A DNA stretch of 64,000 nucleotides from Falsarthrobacter nasiphocae (GTDB lineage Bacteria; Actinomycetota; Actinomycetes; Actinomycetales; Micrococcaceae): contig NZ_JAVDUI010000001.1 in the NCBI RefSeq assembly GCF_031456275.1, forward strand, positions 2,066,965-2,130,964, in the 5' to 3' direction. A program made the translations under genes and the position numbers. The notes under the pieces are model-generated. The model was not told the DNA's origin. It ran no database searches and saw nothing but the letters and a program-made list of their open reading frames with translations. Below, piece after piece: positions 41,183 through 47,509 of this stretch; the first letter of the stretch is position 1; each line of letters opens with the position of its first letter.

Positions 41183-41599
41183 ATGACCACGGAGCGCACT
41201 CTCGTCCTCGTCAAGCCGGACGGCGTCGAGCGCAACCTCACCGGGGCCATCCTGGCTCGCATCGAAGCGAAGGGCTACCGGATCGCCGAGCTCAAGCTCG
41301 TGACGCCGGAGCGCTCGGTGCTTGAGCAGCACTACGCCGAGCACGAGGGCAAGCCGTTCTACGAGCCGCTCCTGGCGTTCATGTCCTCGGGCCCGGTCGT
41401 CGCCGTGGTCGTCGAGGGCGATCGGGTCATCGAAGGCTTCCGCTCCCTCGCCGGGACCACGGACCCCACGACGGCCGCGCCGGGCACCATCCGTGGCGAC
41501 TTCGGCCGCGACTGGGGCGAGAAGGTTCAGAAGAACCTCGTCCACGGCTCGGACTCCGTCGAGTCCGCTGAGCGCGAGATCGGCATCTGGTTCGCCTGA
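41183..41599 (+). CDS. ndk: Nucleoside diphosphate kinase
   Basis: 138 residues, full length. N-terminal RTLVLVKPDGVERN, the catalytic His in NLVHGSDSVESAEREI, and the Kpn loop are all present. Transfers the gamma-phosphate of ATP to NDPs through phospho-His. GAAGGAGAC lies before the ATG. Downstream, after 63 bases, begins the left copy of the duplicated hairpin block that bounds the ATP-grasp island. Confidence 0.97.
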   Translation: MTTERTLVLVKPDGVERNLTGAILARIEAKGYRIAELKLVTPERSVLEQHYAEHEGKPFYEPLLAFMSSGPVVAVVVEGDRVIEGFRSLAGTTDPTTAAPGTIRGDFGRDWGEKVQKNLVHGSDSVESAEREIGIWFA

Positions 41600-41662
41600 G
41601 CGTGACGGCGTGAGCCCGGCGGGCGCGCCTCCCCGGCGGCTGGGGTTCTCCACCCCGGCGGC

Positions 41663-41751
41663 CGTGCGCGCGTCCTGCCTCTGATGTGAACGACGACGAG
41701 GGCGCCGCGGGATTGACTCCCGCGGCGCCCTCGTCGTCGTTCTCTCCGGGC
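41663..41751 (+). repeat. Left copy of the island-flanking block: gene-tail remnant plus 25-bp-stem hairpin
   Basis: A perfect 25-bp stem (41688-41712 with 41718-41742), loop TTGAC, preceded by GATGTGAA and followed by TCTCCGGGC, all shared with the right copy. The similarity continues upstream through 41663: in the frame ending ATG-TGA the last codons read RARVLPLM, against RARVVSPM at the end of the exporter gene. So this copy appears to keep the tail of an exporter-like gene. It probably also terminates ndk. Confidence 0.85.
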
Positions 41752-41843
41752 ATACGAGTGAGCCACTTCTGGGCCGCAGCCCTGTGGGCCGCTACAGGTC
41801 TCCGTGCCTCCACGTGCCAGCTCGCGGCGATGGCGACAACCTG

Positions 41844-41894
41844 GCACGAGATAGCACGAGAGACATGACGATCGGTCGTGTTATGATGCATGTC
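41844..41894 (+). promoter_or_regulatory. Candidate promoter/operator of the ATP-grasp island
   Basis: Two direct GCACGAGA repeats 10 bases apart (41844, 41854) are followed by nested inverted repeats: GACATG/CATGTC (41862-41867, 41889-41894) enclosing ACGA-TCGG-TCGT (41868-41879). A -10-like TATGAT (41882-41887) lies inside the outer repeat. No good -35 is seen 17 bases upstream, which fits an activated promoter. The 288 bases between the left hairpin and the methyltransferase remnant hold no other feature. Confidence 0.55.
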
Positions 41895-42039
41895 ATAGTC
41901 TTGTGGTCGTGGCCCCTAGGTGCGCGGATCATGGCTTATGACGCACCATACGCCGGAGCGCACGGGTCCAGGTGGCCGATTGCCTGCATCGATGTTCGCG
42001 GTCCTTGTCGTCAATATCATGGATTCAGAGGGGCTTGTC

Positions 42040-42421
42040 ATGGAAACGGGAATTGATGCCGTGGTTCCCGGTCAGCGGTGGGAATTTGACCGTGAGGTGA
42101 CGGAAGTGTTCGACAACATGCTCGAACGCAGTATCCCAAATTATGCTGTCATGCGACAGCTCGTCACGGACCTCAGTCGCGATTTCTTGGATGATGGAGG
42201 GGTGCTTGTTGATCTCGGTGCCTCGCGGGGAAACGCGGTCGCACCTTTGCTTGAGGGGGTCTCTCAGGCAGATCGCGCTGTCTGTGTCGAAGTCTCTCCG
42301 CCGATGATCGAGGTGCTGGAGCAGAGGTTCGCTGACGAAATCTCGGCGGGTCGGCCCTGTGGATAGCTTCTGGCGGTGGATGAATTTCGCTGGATACATT
42401 GCAGTGAAGGCCGCAGCATGA
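42040..42421 (+). pseudogene. Internally deleted SAM-dependent methyltransferase (CmoA-like)
   Basis: The intact part from ATG 42040 covers 108 codons: WEFDREVTEVFDNMLERSIP, then SAM motif I VLVDLGASRGNAVAPL, and stops at TAG (42364-42366) soon after the second strand. The typical C-terminal end of this family (FWRWMNFAGYIAVK) follows at once in another frame and runs to TGA 42419-42421, overlapping the next ATG. So about half of the domain is lost by an internal out-of-frame deletion, and the gene was once coupled to the ATP-grasp gene. An upstream in-frame ATG at 42019 is possible. Confidence 0.75.
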
Positions 42422-43677
42422 AATCCAGGCCGCTCCTCATTGGGCTGGACCGCCACCTCCTGGCTGCTTGTGCTCGTCGTGGCTTGGAGCCTGTCGTCAT
42501 GTGCACCCACGGAACGCGCGACTTCGGATTCCCTGAGGCGCCGACAGACACCTACCTTGTTGACTCGCCGATCAAGCTAGAGCAGGCGCTTGGCGCCGTC
42601 GAGCAGATCTGCGCCAGCGGGGTCAGGATCAGCGCGGTCCTCACGACATCCGAGGACGCCGTCGTTACGGCGGCCACCTTGAATTTACTTCTAGGGCTCA
42701 ATGGCCCGAACCCATCTGACGTCGCGAAGTTTCGGGACAAGCTCGTTCAAAAACACCTCGTCAGAGGGGTTGGAGTGCCTGCGGCCGACATTGCGGCCAT
42801 TCATGACGTAAGAGACGGACTCCCTGATCTCCAGATGCCTGTGGTGGTCAAGCCGCGTTTCGGAGCTGGTACGAGTTTGACAGCGCTAGTGACGAGTATC
42901 GATGACTTCGAGCAGTTTAAGGCCGCTCTGCCTGGCAATGCTCCGCGCTCCTTCGTCGCCGAGAGTGTGGCTGTGGGAGACGAGTACATCCTCGACGGGG
43001 TGATTCACCAGGGCAGGATCGTCTTTGCCTCAGTCGCGCGATACGTTTCAGCACCCCTGGATGTCGTCACGACCGGGAACCCATGCTGCATCGTCAGCGC
43101 GGAGGAGCACACTGCGGTCGCGCAGCGGATTCGAGCTCTCGGTGAGGTCGCCATCGCCGCGCTTGGCGCTCCAGATGGCGTGTTCCATCTCGAAGCGTTC
43201 GACGACGGCAAGCGCGCACAGTTCAGTGAATGCGCCCTTCGCAGGGGAGGCGGGATGCAACAAGAACTTGTCTTGGCAAAGCATGGCGTCGATCTGGCAG
43301 ACGCAGCTCTCGCGATTGCCCTGGGCGAGCCTTTGGATATTGTGCCGAGGCCGTCTGGCGACGTCATCGCGTCCATCGCTATCCCGAAGGCGGACGGAAC
43401 CATTCTCGCGTTGCCGGATGCTGAGGACATCATGCGGCAGACCGGTGTTATTGACGCCGTCGTTGAACTTCCGGTAGGCACACAGATGCGTGCCCGTCAG
43501 GCTTCGACAGTCGAGCGGCTGGGACAAATTCTCGCACAGGGAGACACAGAGGAACAGGCTCTCTCGCGGGTTCGAGAGGCACAGAGATTTGCGTCGGATC
43601 AGGTTGTGGCGGTTCCGGCGGGGCCGCTGCGGGTGCTGCGGCGCCGGGGTCCGGACGGAGTGAGACGTGCCGACTGA
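42418..43677 (+). CDS. ATP-grasp ligase, first of two in the island
   Basis: 419 residues from ATG 42418 (GAAGG seven bases before); a GTG at 42376 is less likely. The fold is pre-ATP-grasp domain (LLIGLDRHLLAACARRGLEP region), then the ATP-grasp domain with Lys145 in VVVKPRFGAGTS, a Gly-rich loop, FHLEAF and ECALRRGGGMQQ as the Mg/ATP carboxylate-Asn-like segment. It resembles amino-acid ligases and carbamoyl-phosphate/PurT-like enzymes that couple a carboxylate to an amine through an acyl phosphate. It has no carrier domain. Substrates unknown. The C-terminal 20 residues are Arg-rich and overlap the next gene by 11 bases. Confidence 0.85.
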   Translation: MKSRPLLIGLDRHLLAACARRGLEPVVMCTHGTRDFGFPEAPTDTYLVDSPIKLEQALGAVEQICASGVRISAVLTTSEDAVVTAATLNLLLGLNGPNPSDVAKFRDKLVQKHLVRGVGVPAADIAAIHDVRDGLPDLQMPVVVKPRFGAGTSLTALVTSIDDFEQFKAALPGNAPRSFVAESVAVGDEYILDGVIHQGRIVFASVARYVSAPLDVVTTGNPCCIVSAEEHTAVAQRIRALGEVAIAALGAPDGVFHLEAFDDGKRAQFSECALRRGGGMQQELVLAKHGVDLADAALAIALGEPLDIVPRPSGDVIASIAIPKADGTILALPDAEDIMRQTGVIDAVVELPVGTQMRARQASTVERLGQILAQGDTEEQALSRVREAQRFASDQVVAVPAGPLRVLRRRGPDGVRRAD

Positions 43678-44866
43678 CGTTGCGGGGAAGACGTTGACCG
43701 TCGTTGGCGTGGCGGCTCATCGTGAGGCGGCATTTCACAGATGGGCGGAGATGGGCCTTAGCGTTCATGCTGTGGTCTCGCCCGAGACTCGCACCGAGTC
43801 GTGGCAACACTTGGCAGCGGGCGTCACTCGACTGAACGCGCTAGACACGCGCGGCCTCATGGAGGCTATCCCTGTCTCTGACGGAGTCGTCACCCTGTCG
43901 GAGTTTTCAGTGCAGGCGGTGGCCACCCTGGCAGAGTTGTTGTCGTTGCCAGGGGTGACGACGAGCGCGGCCAACGTGGCCCGAAATAAGGCTCATCTGC
44001 GCCGCGTGCTCCGTGCATCAGGACTGGACGGTGATCTTGCATCCGCGGAGATCCGGTCGGAGCGAGATCTTGAGGCCTTCTTCGCCATTCACGGAGAGGA
44101 GTCTTACGTCCTCAAGCCGGCAGACAGCTCGGGAAGCGCTGGCGTCGTTCGGGTGACATCATTCGCAGAGGCTGCACAGCGGTTTAAAGCAGTGCGTCGA
44201 TGGAGCTTCGGTGGGGATGTGGTGATCGAGGAGTATGTCGCCGGACCGGAGTACAGCTACGAAGGGTGGGTTCAAGGTTCCGAGGCTGTTCTTGCTGCGG
44301 TCGTCCGGAAGAGGACGACGGCTGACTTCGTGGAAATAGGGCACACAGCGACCCACGCGCCGAACGCGGGGGCGTGGGCCCTGATCCGGTCTGCGTTGCG
44401 TCTGCTCGGTGTCGCAGACGGCGTGTTTCACGCGGAGGTGAAATTGTCGCCTGACGGGCCACGAATCATTGAAATTGCGCTGCGGCCCGCCGGCGGCCTG
44501 ATCCCGACCTTGGTGAGTCTCACGACGAACGTCGACCTCTACGAAGCCCAGGCGCGGATCGCCGTGGGGGCCCACGTATTCGAGCCCGTCCCGAATGGAA
44601 CCAGCGCAGCGATCGCCCACGTCGTAGGACAGCCGATGAGCCATGCTTCGCCAGAGACGCTCCGCGCCATATCTCGCTTGCCGAATGTCCCCGAGGTATA
44701 TCAGGCACCCCGACTTGACGGGGACTTGGCACCGCTGAGCGGCAATGACGCTCGAGCGGGGTACGCGCTCGCTCACGGGGTCGGCCCCACGGTGGAGTCG
44801 GACGCCCGGCGTGCAGCGCGGATGCTGGCCGACGCTCTGTGCATTGACATGACTCCCGTGACATGA
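43667..44866 (+). CDS. ATP-grasp ligase, second of two in the island
   Basis: 399 residues from GTG 43667, three bases after GGAG. Lys150 in YVLKPADSSGSAG, VIEEYVAGPEYSYEG (ATP-grasp clamp), FHAEVKLSPDGPRIIEIALRP (metal-binding acidic strand), and AGGLIPTLVSLTTNVDLYE. These are landmarks of L-amino-acid ligases of the BacD/carnosine-synthase type, which form a dipeptide with ATP to ADP. It is clearly diverged from the first enzyme in the island, so the two probably catalyse successive or different bond formations. Stop and next start overlap (ATGA). Confidence 0.87.
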   Translation: MPTDVAGKTLTVVGVAAHREAAFHRWAEMGLSVHAVVSPETRTESWQHLAAGVTRLNALDTRGLMEAIPVSDGVVTLSEFSVQAVATLAELLSLPGVTTSAANVARNKAHLRRVLRASGLDGDLASAEIRSERDLEAFFAIHGEESYVLKPADSSGSAGVVRVTSFAEAAQRFKAVRRWSFGGDVVIEEYVAGPEYSYEGWVQGSEAVLAAVVRKRTTADFVEIGHTATHAPNAGAWALIRSALRLLGVADGVFHAEVKLSPDGPRIIEIALRPAGGLIPTLVSLTTNVDLYEAQARIAVGAHVFEPVPNGTSAAIAHVVGQPMSHASPETLRAISRLPNVPEVYQAPRLDGDLAPLSGNDARAGYALAHGVGPTVESDARRAARMLADALCIDMTPVT

Positions 44867-46089
44867 GCGCCGTCTCGAATCGGCGTCTCGGATGGCTCAT
44901 CGAGCGCTTCACCGTTGGGACGCTCGTCGGCGGGCTCGGGGCAGGGATGTTCATTCCCTTCTCCCTGCTCTATTTCACTCAGGCTCGGTCAATCCCCTTG
45001 CCGGTTGTCAGCGTGGGGCTTGCTGTGGGGGCCGGAGTCACGCTCGCGTGTGCCTATCCGCTCGGGGTGGCCGTAGATCGGTTAGGGGCCAAGCGGGTTT
45101 TGGTCCTCGCGAATATGGGACGGGCGGTCATCTTCGGGCTCTTCGCCTTCGTCCCGCACGCTCCGACGATCCTTGTTCTACTCATCCTGAATTGTCTTCT
45201 GGAGAGGGGCAGCTGGGTCGCCCTCTACACGGTCATCGGCCGCTCGCCGAGTCTCTTTGGCGCGAGCGGCGCACTGCGCTTCGCCCGTCTCTCCTGGCTC
45301 CGGAACGTCGGCCTGGGCGTGGGAGCGCTCGTGGCGGCGGTTCTTGCCTCGGATCTTTCCCTCATGGTCGTGGCCGTGTGGGCCAACGCGGTGAGCTACA
45401 TCATCGCAGGGCTGTGCTTTATGGCTAGTGGAGCCGGGGCGGGCGCCCAGACGTCCTCGGAGTCGCGGAAACCCGGCGAGGCGGCTCCCGTGCGTCTCGC
45501 GTTCGGCCGCGTCTTTTGGCTCGTTGTGGTCGTGAAACTCTTCCTCGTGATCATCGCTGGCGTGTTTGGCTCGTTCTTGCCCGTGGTCGCCGACACCTAT
45601 TTTTCCGCCGCGTGGCTTGCGGGCATAGGATTCAGCGTCAATACGTGGATGATCATCTTCCTGCAGCCGTGGATCATCAAGAGAGCGCAGAAATTCAGTC
45701 CCGCTGGGTGCCTGATTCTGGGCGCATCGATATACGTTGCTTCGGGTGCCGTGTTTGTTGGGGCGGCGGTGCTCCCGGACGTGGCACGCCCGTGGATGTT
45801 CTTGGCCGGCGTCGTGGTTTTTACGATTGGTGAGATCCTCGTCGCGCCATCGTCGGACCAGCTGGCAGATTCGGCTCTTCCATCTGAGGTCAAGGGACGC
45901 GGCCAATCGATCTACCAGTCGGCATGGGGTGTGGGCGGTGTCTTCGCGCCGGTCCTCGGCGGCTTTGTCGTCATCGCGAGCAGCGTCGGTTTCGGCGCCC
46001 TCCTCCTCTTCTTGGCTTTGCTCGGGCTCGGGTGCGGATTGATTGTGGTCAGGGCACTGCGCCGGGCGCGTGTCGTGTCTCCGATGTGA
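44863..46089 (+). CDS. MFS-family efflux transporter
   Basis: 408 residues with about twelve membrane helices. Motif A between TM2 and TM3 reads GVAVDRLGAKRVL. A charged loop after TM6 (SESRKPGEAAP) is the usual central break. Overlaps the second ATP-grasp gene by four bases. With ligases upstream and no uptake genes, export or self-resistance for the product is the natural role (inference), as with exporter genes next to bacilysin-type ligases. Its final two codons (ATG TGA) fall inside the right repeat copy. Confidence 0.88.
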   Translation: MSAVSNRRLGWLIERFTVGTLVGGLGAGMFIPFSLLYFTQARSIPLPVVSVGLAVGAGVTLACAYPLGVAVDRLGAKRVLVLANMGRAVIFGLFAFVPHAPTILVLLILNCLLERGSWVALYTVIGRSPSLFGASGALRFARLSWLRNVGLGVGALVAAVLASDLSLMVVAVWANAVSYIIAGLCFMASGAGAGAQTSSESRKPGEAAPVRLAFGRVFWLVVVVKLFLVIIAGVFGSFLPVVADTYFSAAWLAGIGFSVNTWMIIFLQPWIIKRAQKFSPAGCLILGASIYVASGAVFVGAAVLPDVARPWMFLAGVVVFTIGEILVAPSSDQLADSALPSEVKGRGQSIYQSAWGVGGVFAPVLGGFVVIASSVGFGALLLFLALLGLGCGLIVVRALRRARVVSPM

Positions 46090-46151
46090 ACGACGACGGG
46101 GGCGCCGCGGGAGACAATCCCGCGGCGCCCCCGTCGTCGTTCTCTCCGGGC
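46063..46151 (+). repeat. Right copy of the island-flanking block with 25-bp-stem hairpin
   Basis: Perfect 25-bp stem (46088-46112 with 46118-46142), loop GACAA. Compared with the left copy, one stem base and its partner both differ (A-T there, G-C here), so pairing is preserved. The loop is near-identical to the left one only when one copy is reverse-complemented (ATTGTCT against ATTGACT). Serves as the transporter terminator. Confidence 0.88.
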
Positions 46152-46279: not shown

Positions 46280-47509
46280 TCAGACGCCCGTCGTCTCGTC
46301 GGACGACTCCGCGGGCCCGCGCCGGGCTGGCACAAGCACCGTGATGTTTCCGGGGCCCGGCTTGGACTCACCCACGGCCGAGGCCGGGATGTCCGCGCCC
46401 AGGTCCGCGACCACCGCGTCGAGCGAGGCCCCCGTCGGCACCACGGCGTCCCCGAGCAGCACGGACCGGCGCACGCGAGCGCCGCGCTCAACGGTGACCC
46501 CCGGGCCGATGACCGAGTCCTCCACCTCACCCTCGACCCGCGCGCCGGGGGAGACCAGGCTCCGCCGGACACTCGCCGAGGGGCCGATCCACGCGGGCGC
46601 CGTCTCCCGCGGGTTCGTCAGGAGAGGCCAGGCGTGCCGATCCAGTTCGAGGCCCTTGCCCTCAACGAGGTCCATGTGGGCCTGGAAGTACGCGTCAATC
46701 GTGCCGATGTCCCGCCAGTAGCCGTCGAGCCGGTACTCGTGCGCGCGTCCCCGCTCCACGAGCGCCGGGATGATGGACTCGCCGTAGTCGCCGAGCGAGT
46801 CTCCGTCGATCTCCGGGTCGTGGTCCGCCTCGCCCGCGGCCTCGGACGCCTTCTCCTCGGCCACGAGGGCTCGGGTCACCTCGGCGAGCGCCTCGACGCT
46901 GTACACGAACACCTCCGTGGCCACGAGCTGCCCCTCGGGCTGTTCCGGCTTGTAGTCGTACCGGGTCACGGCCCCGTCGTCGTCCACCTGCACCACGCCG
47001 TAGCGGGAGGGGTCCCCGGGCACCTCGGTGGTCACGACGGTCAGCTCGGACCCGCGCTCGGCGTGCTGTTCGAGGACCGGCCGGAGGTCCAGGTGGTACA
47101 GGTGATCGGCGGAGAGGACGACGACGGTGCTGGCGCCAAAGGACTCCAGGAGTGGCACCTGCTGGTGCAGCGCGTGGCCGTTGCCTGCGGCGAAGCCCTC
47201 TTCGCTGCGCCCTTCGGCGGGCGGGAGGATCTGGAGGCCGTGCCGCGTCGAGTCGAGGTCCCACGGCCGACCGCCCGCGAGGTGCCGGTTCAGGGTGAAG
47301 GGCCGGTACTGCTCGACAATCCACACGTTCTCCAGCCCCGAGTGCGCGATGTTCGAGAGCACAACGTCGATCATCCGGAACGAGCCGGCGAAGGGAACGG
47401 CGGGCTTGGCCCGAGCGTCCGTCAGGGGAGACAGGCGGGACCCGCGTCCGCCTGCAAGGACGAGCGCGACGACAGGCGGTTCGGGGTGGGCGGGGAACGG
47501 GCGGGCCAT
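46280..47509 (-). CDS. glgC: Glucose-1-phosphate adenylyltransferase-like nucleotidyltransferase
   Basis: 409 residues. LAGGRGSRLSPLTDARAKPAVPF nucleotide-binding start (read as LAGGRGSRL then RAKPAVPF), RMIDVVLSN, HLYHLD metal site, KPEQPEG and YWRDIGTIDAYFQA sugar-binding segment, then left-handed beta-helix repeats. Makes ADP-glucose from glucose-1-P and ATP for glycogen and glycan synthesis. Not placed beside other glycogen genes. Convergent with the island. Confidence 0.9.
   Translation of the reverse strand: MARPFPAHPEPPVVALVLAGGRGSRLSPLTDARAKPAVPFAGSFRMIDVVLSNIAHSGLENVWIVEQYRPFTLNRHLAGGRPWDLDSTRHGLQILPPAEGRSEEGFAAGNGHALHQQVPLLESFGASTVVVLSADHLYHLDLRPVLEQHAERGSELTVVTTEVPGDPSRYGVVQVDDDGAVTRYDYKPEQPEGQLVATEVFVYSVEALAEVTRALVAEEKASEAAGEADHDPEIDGDSLGDYGESIIPALVERGRAHEYRLDGYWRDIGTIDAYFQAHMDLVEGKGLELDRHAWPLLTNPRETAPAWIGPSASVRRSLVSPGARVEGEVEDSVIGPGVTVERGARVRRSVLLGDAVVPTGASLDAVVADLGADIPASAVGESKPGPGNITVLVPARRGPAESSDETTGV

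Follow-up and report, generated by a model that had tools for sequence, protein, structure and literature searches.

What would two unlike ATP-grasp ligases and a transporter of the major facilitator superfamily (MFS) do together in the gap between ndk and glgC of the actinobacterium Falsarthrobacter nasiphocae? The stretch of DNA analysed here (the window) comprises 64,000 nucleotides of contig NZ_JAVDUI010000001.1 (assembly GCF_031456275.1, forward-strand positions 2,066,965 to 2,130,964), and window coordinates below count from its first base. An earlier note, made from the window's sequence, had proposed that the three genes form a compact cassette for building a di- or tripeptide and exporting or detoxifying it, and had named the cassette the best candidate in the window for an undescribed system. 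By examining the two ligases, the transporter, the DNA ahead of them and the occurrence of related genes elsewhere, we hypothesize, with moderate confidence, that the cassette is an operon, gained by horizontal transfer, whose product is a small peptide assembled without a nonribosomal peptide synthetase (NRPS), the genes providing one ligation, a second ligation and export; its substrates, the order in which the ligases act, export, activity and origin are what we infer. The operon probably once began with a fourth gene, related to the carboxy-S-adenosylmethionine (carboxy-SAM) synthase CmoA, of which a broken copy is left.

Two overlapping ligase genes and a transporter

Coordinates of the open reading frames (ORFs) bear out the trio as first described. 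All on the forward strand, ligase 1 (AG1, 419 amino acids, ATG start, 42418..43677) and ligase 2 (AG2, 399 amino acids, GTG start, 43667..44866), both ATP-grasp proteins resembling L-amino acid ligases (LALs), are followed by the MFS transporter gene (408 amino acids, ATG start, 44863..46089); the reading frames overlap by 11 bases (AG1/AG2) and 4 bases (AG2/MFS), and the overlaps suggest translational coupling. The lower GC content that had been reported for the trio is confirmed, at 0.62 (AG1), 0.64 (AG2) and 0.64 (MFS), where ndk has 0.69 and the window as a whole 0.684. At third codon positions (GC3) the three genes stand at 0.67, 0.71 and 0.77, while 25 of the 30 other window ORFs (those of 200 or more codons, filtered for GC3 > GC1 > GC2) fall at 0.87-0.96 and the other five at 0.76-0.82. 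Inspection of the ORF list by eye, with profiles applied to two left neighbours, turned up no gene for a carrier protein, an NRPS or a ribosomal peptide.

Judged by sequence and by low-confidence predicted models, both ligases are closest to LALs and not to purine, biotin or carbamoyl enzymes. AG1 passes the Pfam cut-off for LAL_C2 (PF18603; 32.5 vs 29.4 bits) and AG2 that for ATP-grasp_4 (45.3 vs 27 bits). The closest solved structures by sequence are RizA (4wd3, 6.2e-20) and 30vh (6e-10) for AG1 and BL00235 (3vot, 5e-14) for AG2. In Foldseek searches, entries of RizA, BL00235 and BacD lead for both proteins (ranks 1-4 for AG1, 1-6 for AG2), with 16-24% identity in the alignments to known LALs. 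VIA, applied to AG1 only (the fold evidence for AG2 is that of Foldseek), places five ligase entries at Z 25.9-23.6 (root-mean-square deviation 3.4-4.8, 299-330 residues aligned), a narrow lead over the next entry, 4dim (Z 22.6, deviation 5.2, 290 aligned). The residues K145, E259, E271 and R275 of AG1 are invariant in a 13-row alignment (A1), as are K150, E257, E269 and R273 of AG2 in a 9-row alignment (A2); we take these to be ATP- and metal-binding residues and a substrate arginine, roles carried over from BacD-type enzymes. The idea that the ATP-grasps are amino-acid ligases is thus strengthened: LALs rank ahead of the purine, biotin and carbamoyl enzymes whose homology the earlier note had said would speak against it.

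Because of this likeness and the conserved core residues, a two-ligase route to a di- or tripeptide, with export, is likely. One ligase would use ATP to convert the carboxylate of one amino acid into an acyl phosphate and couple it with another amino acid; its partner would extend or cap the dipeptide with a further unit; and the MFS protein would export the product. The transporter, which meets the MFS_1 cut-off (81.7 vs 33.4 bits), is a probable exporter. Its sole NCBIfam match, to YdeE, lies far under the cut-off (29.6 vs 582 bits) and is too weak for a substrate to be assigned from it; YdeE itself is described, in the parts of the sources drawn on here, as a dipeptide exporter (PMC9600279, PMC3429515).

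Several observations weigh against this reading. AG1 misses the ATP-grasp_4 cut-off (21.9 vs 27 bits) and AG2 that of LAL_C2 (18.8 vs 29.4 bits), for which reason AG2 is termed LAL-like and not a member of that family, and neither ligase meets any NCBIfam cut-off. The predicted models, built on five-row alignments, are of low confidence (predicted local distance difference 60.5 and template-modelling score 0.61 for AG1; 55.9 and 0.60 for AG2). The cassette contains no recognised gene for an unusual amino acid. A tblastn search of the plasmid collection at E 1e-5 gave no hit for the MFS protein, and the same partial sources also tie YdeE to arabinose export and presumed drug transport (PMC9600279, PMC3429515). 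Finally, AG2 passes ATPgrasp_Ter (29.4 vs 29.1 bits) and GARS_A (27.0 vs 27 bits) marginally. Together with a purD match far below its cut-off and glycinamide ribonucleotide synthetase structures at lower rank, the GARS_A score is what speaks for housekeeping or purine/carboxylase-type ATP-grasps standing beside an unrelated drug pump; we consider this highly improbable, as ligase structures rank first for both proteins, the trio genes overlap and deviate in composition, and AG1 is missing from the sampled relatives at E 1e-30.

Remains of a CmoA-like first gene

The earlier note had given the trio its own promoter-like region. One forward-strand site upstream of AG1 upholds this (41860..41887; GAGACA, 16 nt, TATGAT; a consensus match only), and the upstream stretch carries three promoter-like sites over both strands versus a shuffle mean of 0.5; what had been overlooked is that the same region holds a broken CmoA-like gene. 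Its N-terminal part occupies 42040..42366 on the forward strand, with similarity running to about 42336-42342 and an in-frame stop at 42364-42366, and a C-terminal tail follows on the same strand in another frame (42359..42421). The N-terminal fragment matches TIGR00740 (E 8.7e-15; 55 bits, under the equivalog cut-off of 193.3) and phrog_4752 (E 1.1e-23), is matched by 55 phage records at E 1e-5, and over its length is 45-46% identical to homologs from phage PaBG and a Scytonema plasmid.

When 451 bases of the window were searched by tblastn with full-length homologs from the Scytonema plasmid, a Phocaeicola plasmid and phage PaBG, both parts were recovered, in different frames, with E-values of 7e-7, 1e-5 and 2e-6 for the tail. 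The tail scores 31.2 bits with the Scytonema protein, against a best of 21.6 bits for any of the three proteins on 500 shuffles of the tail region. On TIGR00740 the three full-length relatives themselves stay short of 193.3 bits (176.7, 130.5 and 164.1), and residues 11-232 of the Scytonema homolog align with the CmoA structure 4gek (E 4.4e-37). Residues 97-215 of that homolog, about 119 in number, are unmatched in the window, where the gene is no longer a full-length ORF, having suffered an internal loss and a change of frame. Overlap between the TGA of the tail (42419-42421) and the ATG of AG1 suggests that the CmoA-like gene once stood first in the operon; the ancestral order was probably CmoA-like, ligase, ligase, MFS. 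As a side observation, the Phocaeicola massiliensis plasmid gene (L065:7992-8783; 164.1 bits) is unannotated, in a record with one annotated feature.

No second CmoA-like homolog was found in the genome at E 0.001, and among 394 genomes of the class the fragment matched at E 1e-8 in its own genome only, the other 393 lacking it. None of 31 comparator loci has a CmoA-like gene next to an ATP-grasp gene (blastp), no intact copy of the four-gene operon appeared in the searches made, and no carboxymethyltransferase was recognised beside the broken gene.

The break in the first gene may mean that the pathway has ceased to function, a further point against a working peptide operon; partial decay of the cassette is possible. 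At its extreme this becomes a rival account, in which a four-gene pathway arrived and its first gene was then lost, too recently for the other three ORFs to have been disrupted as well. The missing 119 or so residues and the frame shift, the lack of another CmoA-like homolog in the genome, the absence of the cassette from the ndk-glgC site in two congeners, and the lack of recognisable precursor genes nearby (by eye in the ORF list, and by profile for the two left neighbours) would all fit; against it, three overlapping ORFs of about 400 codons each stay open and keep their core residues, and we regard a decaying remnant as a real but distinctly lesser possibility. Under the peptide-operon reading that we prefer, the strain would now make a form without the contribution of the CmoA-type enzyme, or possibly nothing; since that gene is broken, any product made today is probably unlike the ancestral one.

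Carboxy-SAM is a rare cofactor and is itself an alpha-amino acid, and a carboxy-SAM synthase-like gene is an unusual partner for ATP-grasp ligases. It is conceivable, if unlikely, that the ancestral cassette encoded a new carboxy-SAM-based peptide pathway, with a carboxymethyl group or carboxy-SAM as a building block for both ligases: the CmoA-type enzyme would make carboxy-SAM, and the ligases would couple the derived unit with amino acids, the product then being exported. An intact relative, should there be one, would tie carboxy-SAM chemistry to ATP-grasp peptide ligation. At about 4.4 kb the cassette is compact enough to be expressed whole.

Relatives, recurrence and the ndk-glgC site

Searches for the ligases were made in draws of family, order, class and phylum genomes, which overlap, with four candidates per genome scored among the matches listed, so that distant relatives are undercounted. 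At E 1e-30, AG1 was found in its own genome only among 395 family and 396 order genomes (394 other family genomes lacking it), and AG2 in its own genome only among 396 phylum genomes. At E 1e-20, AG1 relatives turn up in the class, in 18 other genomes out of 394 (best identity 34%); in the plasmid collection, 53 records match AG1 (best 36%). An exact-peptide scan of genome contigs, a method that detects close relatives only, returned 38 stretches with one distant relative (L031). The genome itself holds no third AG1 relative at E 0.001. A phage origin of the ligases was considered and rejected: viral contigs gave two pattern matches for AG2 and 11 for AG1, none confirmed, and neither protein matches a PHROG family at E 0.001.

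The comparator set consists of 23 loci picked by similarity to AG1 rather than sampled at random, some of them from the same genome or near duplicates, and this tempers what its counts lend to our reading: 12 of the 23 have two or more ligase-like ORFs, and in eight a ligase-like ORF abuts a same-strand ORF with multiple transmembrane segments or of the MFS. Excluded from the latter count are three loci whose stop-to-stop ORFs overlap ambiguously (L043, L048, L053); a short MFS-like hit at L044 and the MFS gene of L052, which lies 1.6 kb from a LAL_C2 ligase gene, were not scored as adjacent, and a second ligase hit at L044 (30.9 bits, overlapping another frame) was left out of the counts. The cassette's MFS protein matches three of five MFS proteins from comparator loci, that of L052 best.

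The likest arrangement, at an actinobacterial locus (L042, genome G986), has ligase, ligase and MFS genes in the same order on one strand. By predicted starts its ligase genes overlap by 20 nt and lie 49 nt from the MFS gene, and its first ligase is 35% identical to AG1 over 275 amino acids. It differs in its neighbours, which are ORFs of the PEP_mutase family (a Pfam model that also matches an isocitrate lyase-like gene of the F. nasiphocae genome), of the aconitase family and with a methyltransferase domain. Nor is it a homologous unit, and here too the comparison tells against us: only the first of its ligases is clearly related to AG1, the second is nearer to AG1 (47.7 bits) than to AG2 (23.3 bits), its MFS protein does not match that of the cassette, and both its ligases fall under the Pfam cut-offs. 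A Priestia plasmid locus with an AG2 relative (H29) carries two ATP-grasp genes, an MFS gene and a gene of the isocitrate lyase/phosphoenolpyruvate (PEP) mutase family. The ligase-ligase-exporter design recurs, and the exact gene set was not found elsewhere. On a plasmid of Streptomyces sp. NBC_00158 (L005:8983-18370) we also observed that an AG1-like gene and an MFS gene overlap; in the same region, a run of three ATP-grasp genes leads into another MFS gene, near short-chain dehydrogenase/reductase and aldo/keto reductase genes.

Not all relatives point towards peptides. In Parabacteroides and Enterococcus, plasmid relatives of AG2 (H22, whose E-value is the lowest among the matches listed, and H28) lie in polysaccharide loci, which counts against us and favours an account in which the ligases amidate something that is not a free amino acid, such as a sugar or polysaccharide unit or some other metabolite, for transport by the MFS protein. 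Such a role seems to us quite unlikely: neither a glycosyltransferase gene nor a sugar gene could be recognised among the ORFs of the cassette, the AG1 relatives looked at adjoin NRPS, radical SAM, PEP_mutase-family or further ligase genes, and the closest solved structures of AG1 and AG2 are dipeptide ligases.

The peptide operon that we favour was probably acquired horizontally, to judge from its sequence and distribution; the block looks foreign because AG1 occurs in 0 of 394 other family genomes at the threshold used. Outside the cassette lie ndk on the left (41183..41599, forward strand; NDK match, 2.7e-52) and glgC on the right (46280..47509, reverse strand; identified from its ORF, with plasmid DNA matches to the right flank, H45 and H48, annotated as sugar phosphate nucleotidyltransferase and glgC). 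All three genus genomes have ndk. In one congener (G013) the ndk-glgC gap measures 1.76 kb and holds a helix-turn-helix (HTH) and HipA pair in place of the trio; in another (G043) it spans about 0.33 kb, part of it a run of N, in a genome that is 82% complete, so that absence there is less certain. The trio thus does not look like a set of housekeeping genes conserved at this site in all relatives, which the earlier note had named as evidence that would overturn its reading: it is not at the site in the two congeners, and AG1 was not found in the sampled family genomes at E 1e-30. Because of the HTH-HipA pair, the gap may be an insertion hotspot, and the site may accept different inserts, as seen in three genomes only. 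The pair itself (L035:4990-6287; HTH_3 52.6 bits, HipA_C 80.1 bits) resembles a toxin-antitoxin pair.

Two 91-nt direct repeats, 88% identical and with starts 4400 bases apart, bound the gene block, and a 30-base core with at most three mismatches occurred in 0 of 100 window shuffles. The left copy, found by repeat search (41661..41751, forward strand), contains a 25-bp hairpin at 41688-41742 (-58.9 kcal/mol, z -8.0), and the right copy (46061..46151, forward strand) consists of the last MFS codons and a 25-bp hairpin at 46088-46142 (-62.0 kcal/mol, z -8.7), so that both fold far more stably than shuffles. We infer that the hairpins may be terminators; neither was listed by a consensus terminator scan, and both are without a T run. 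By eye, the stretch before the left hairpin resembles the last nine MFS codons, as if a second cassette end had once been there. A further hairpin starting AACGACGACG lies elsewhere in the genome (L061, ~1509-1564), apparently 3' of a gene end by eye, and because it starts alike, the stem may be a common style of this genome, perhaps a terminator style; a common origin of the repeats is likelier than that, since the 91-nt match also takes in the last MFS codons, upstream of the hairpin. An integron-like cassette was also considered and rejected: the hairpins are perfect long stems, and no attC-like core was seen by eye.

Comparison with described systems

The single ligases RizA, BL00235 and BacD share the ATP-grasp core with AG1 and AG2 and are their best solved-structure matches; here, by contrast, two unlike ligases overlap in one operon. 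The cystargolide and belactosin pathways combine a SAM-dependent methyltransferase, CysG, with an ATP-grasp enzyme, CysD, in one small-peptide pathway (PMC11427300); compared by description, in the part of that source used, they differ in that CysG makes a methyl ester and each pathway has one ATP-grasp enzyme together with acyl-activating enzymes. For argolaphos, the portion of the source consulted names one ATP-grasp ligase, AlpC (PMC8976061), and offers no closer match than the phosphonoalamides discussed below.

For the lost gene, the nearest described setting is the phage CmoA-CmoX-CmoY DNA modification system, in which CmoA adjoins CmoX (PMC12783734, in part). The CmoA-like genes of phage PaBG and Scytonema each adjoin a DNA cytosine methylase gene, and so resemble the arrangement reported there for CmoA and CmoX. 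The phage CmoY, by the same partial account, is an asparagine synthetase homolog and not an ATP-grasp enzyme, whereas the CmoA-like remnant of the cassette precedes two ATP-grasp ligases. The carboxy-SAM pathway considered above would be a small-molecule parallel to the phage system, in which DNA carries a carboxymethyl handle that is amidated with glycine. CmoA homologs do work in natural-product (peptide) pathways, as the relevant part of PMC10491745 describes for TglE and MccS; a literature search limited to open-licence papers found no paper that brings carboxy-SAM, CmoA and ATP-grasp enzymes together.

The nearest described counterpart of the trio is the phosphonoalamide cluster, whose two ATP-grasp ligases, PnaC and PnaB, have been shown biochemically to build first a dipeptide and then a tripeptide (PMC11867202). 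Likened by description, in the part of the source used, that cluster shares with the cassette two distinct ATP-grasp ligases and transporters (orf5 and PnaT). It differs in making its own unusual amino acid, phosphonoalanine (by pepM and a transaminase), no gene for which was recognised in the cassette, itself reduced to two ligases, an exporter and CmoA-like remains. Phosphonate was rejected as the present chemistry, since no PEP mutase in the F. nasiphocae genome exceeds the TIGR02320 cut-off (best 135.2 vs 319.55 bits); the single sub-cut-off match also passes the Pfam cut-off for isocitrate lyase. The idea of an undescribed kind of system is accordingly not supported: the logic of two ligases, a tripeptide and a transporter is known, as far as the partial source goes, from the phosphonoalamides (PMC11867202), and the ligase-ligase-MFS order recurs elsewhere. 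The cassette follows a known design, with an unusual partner that has been lost.

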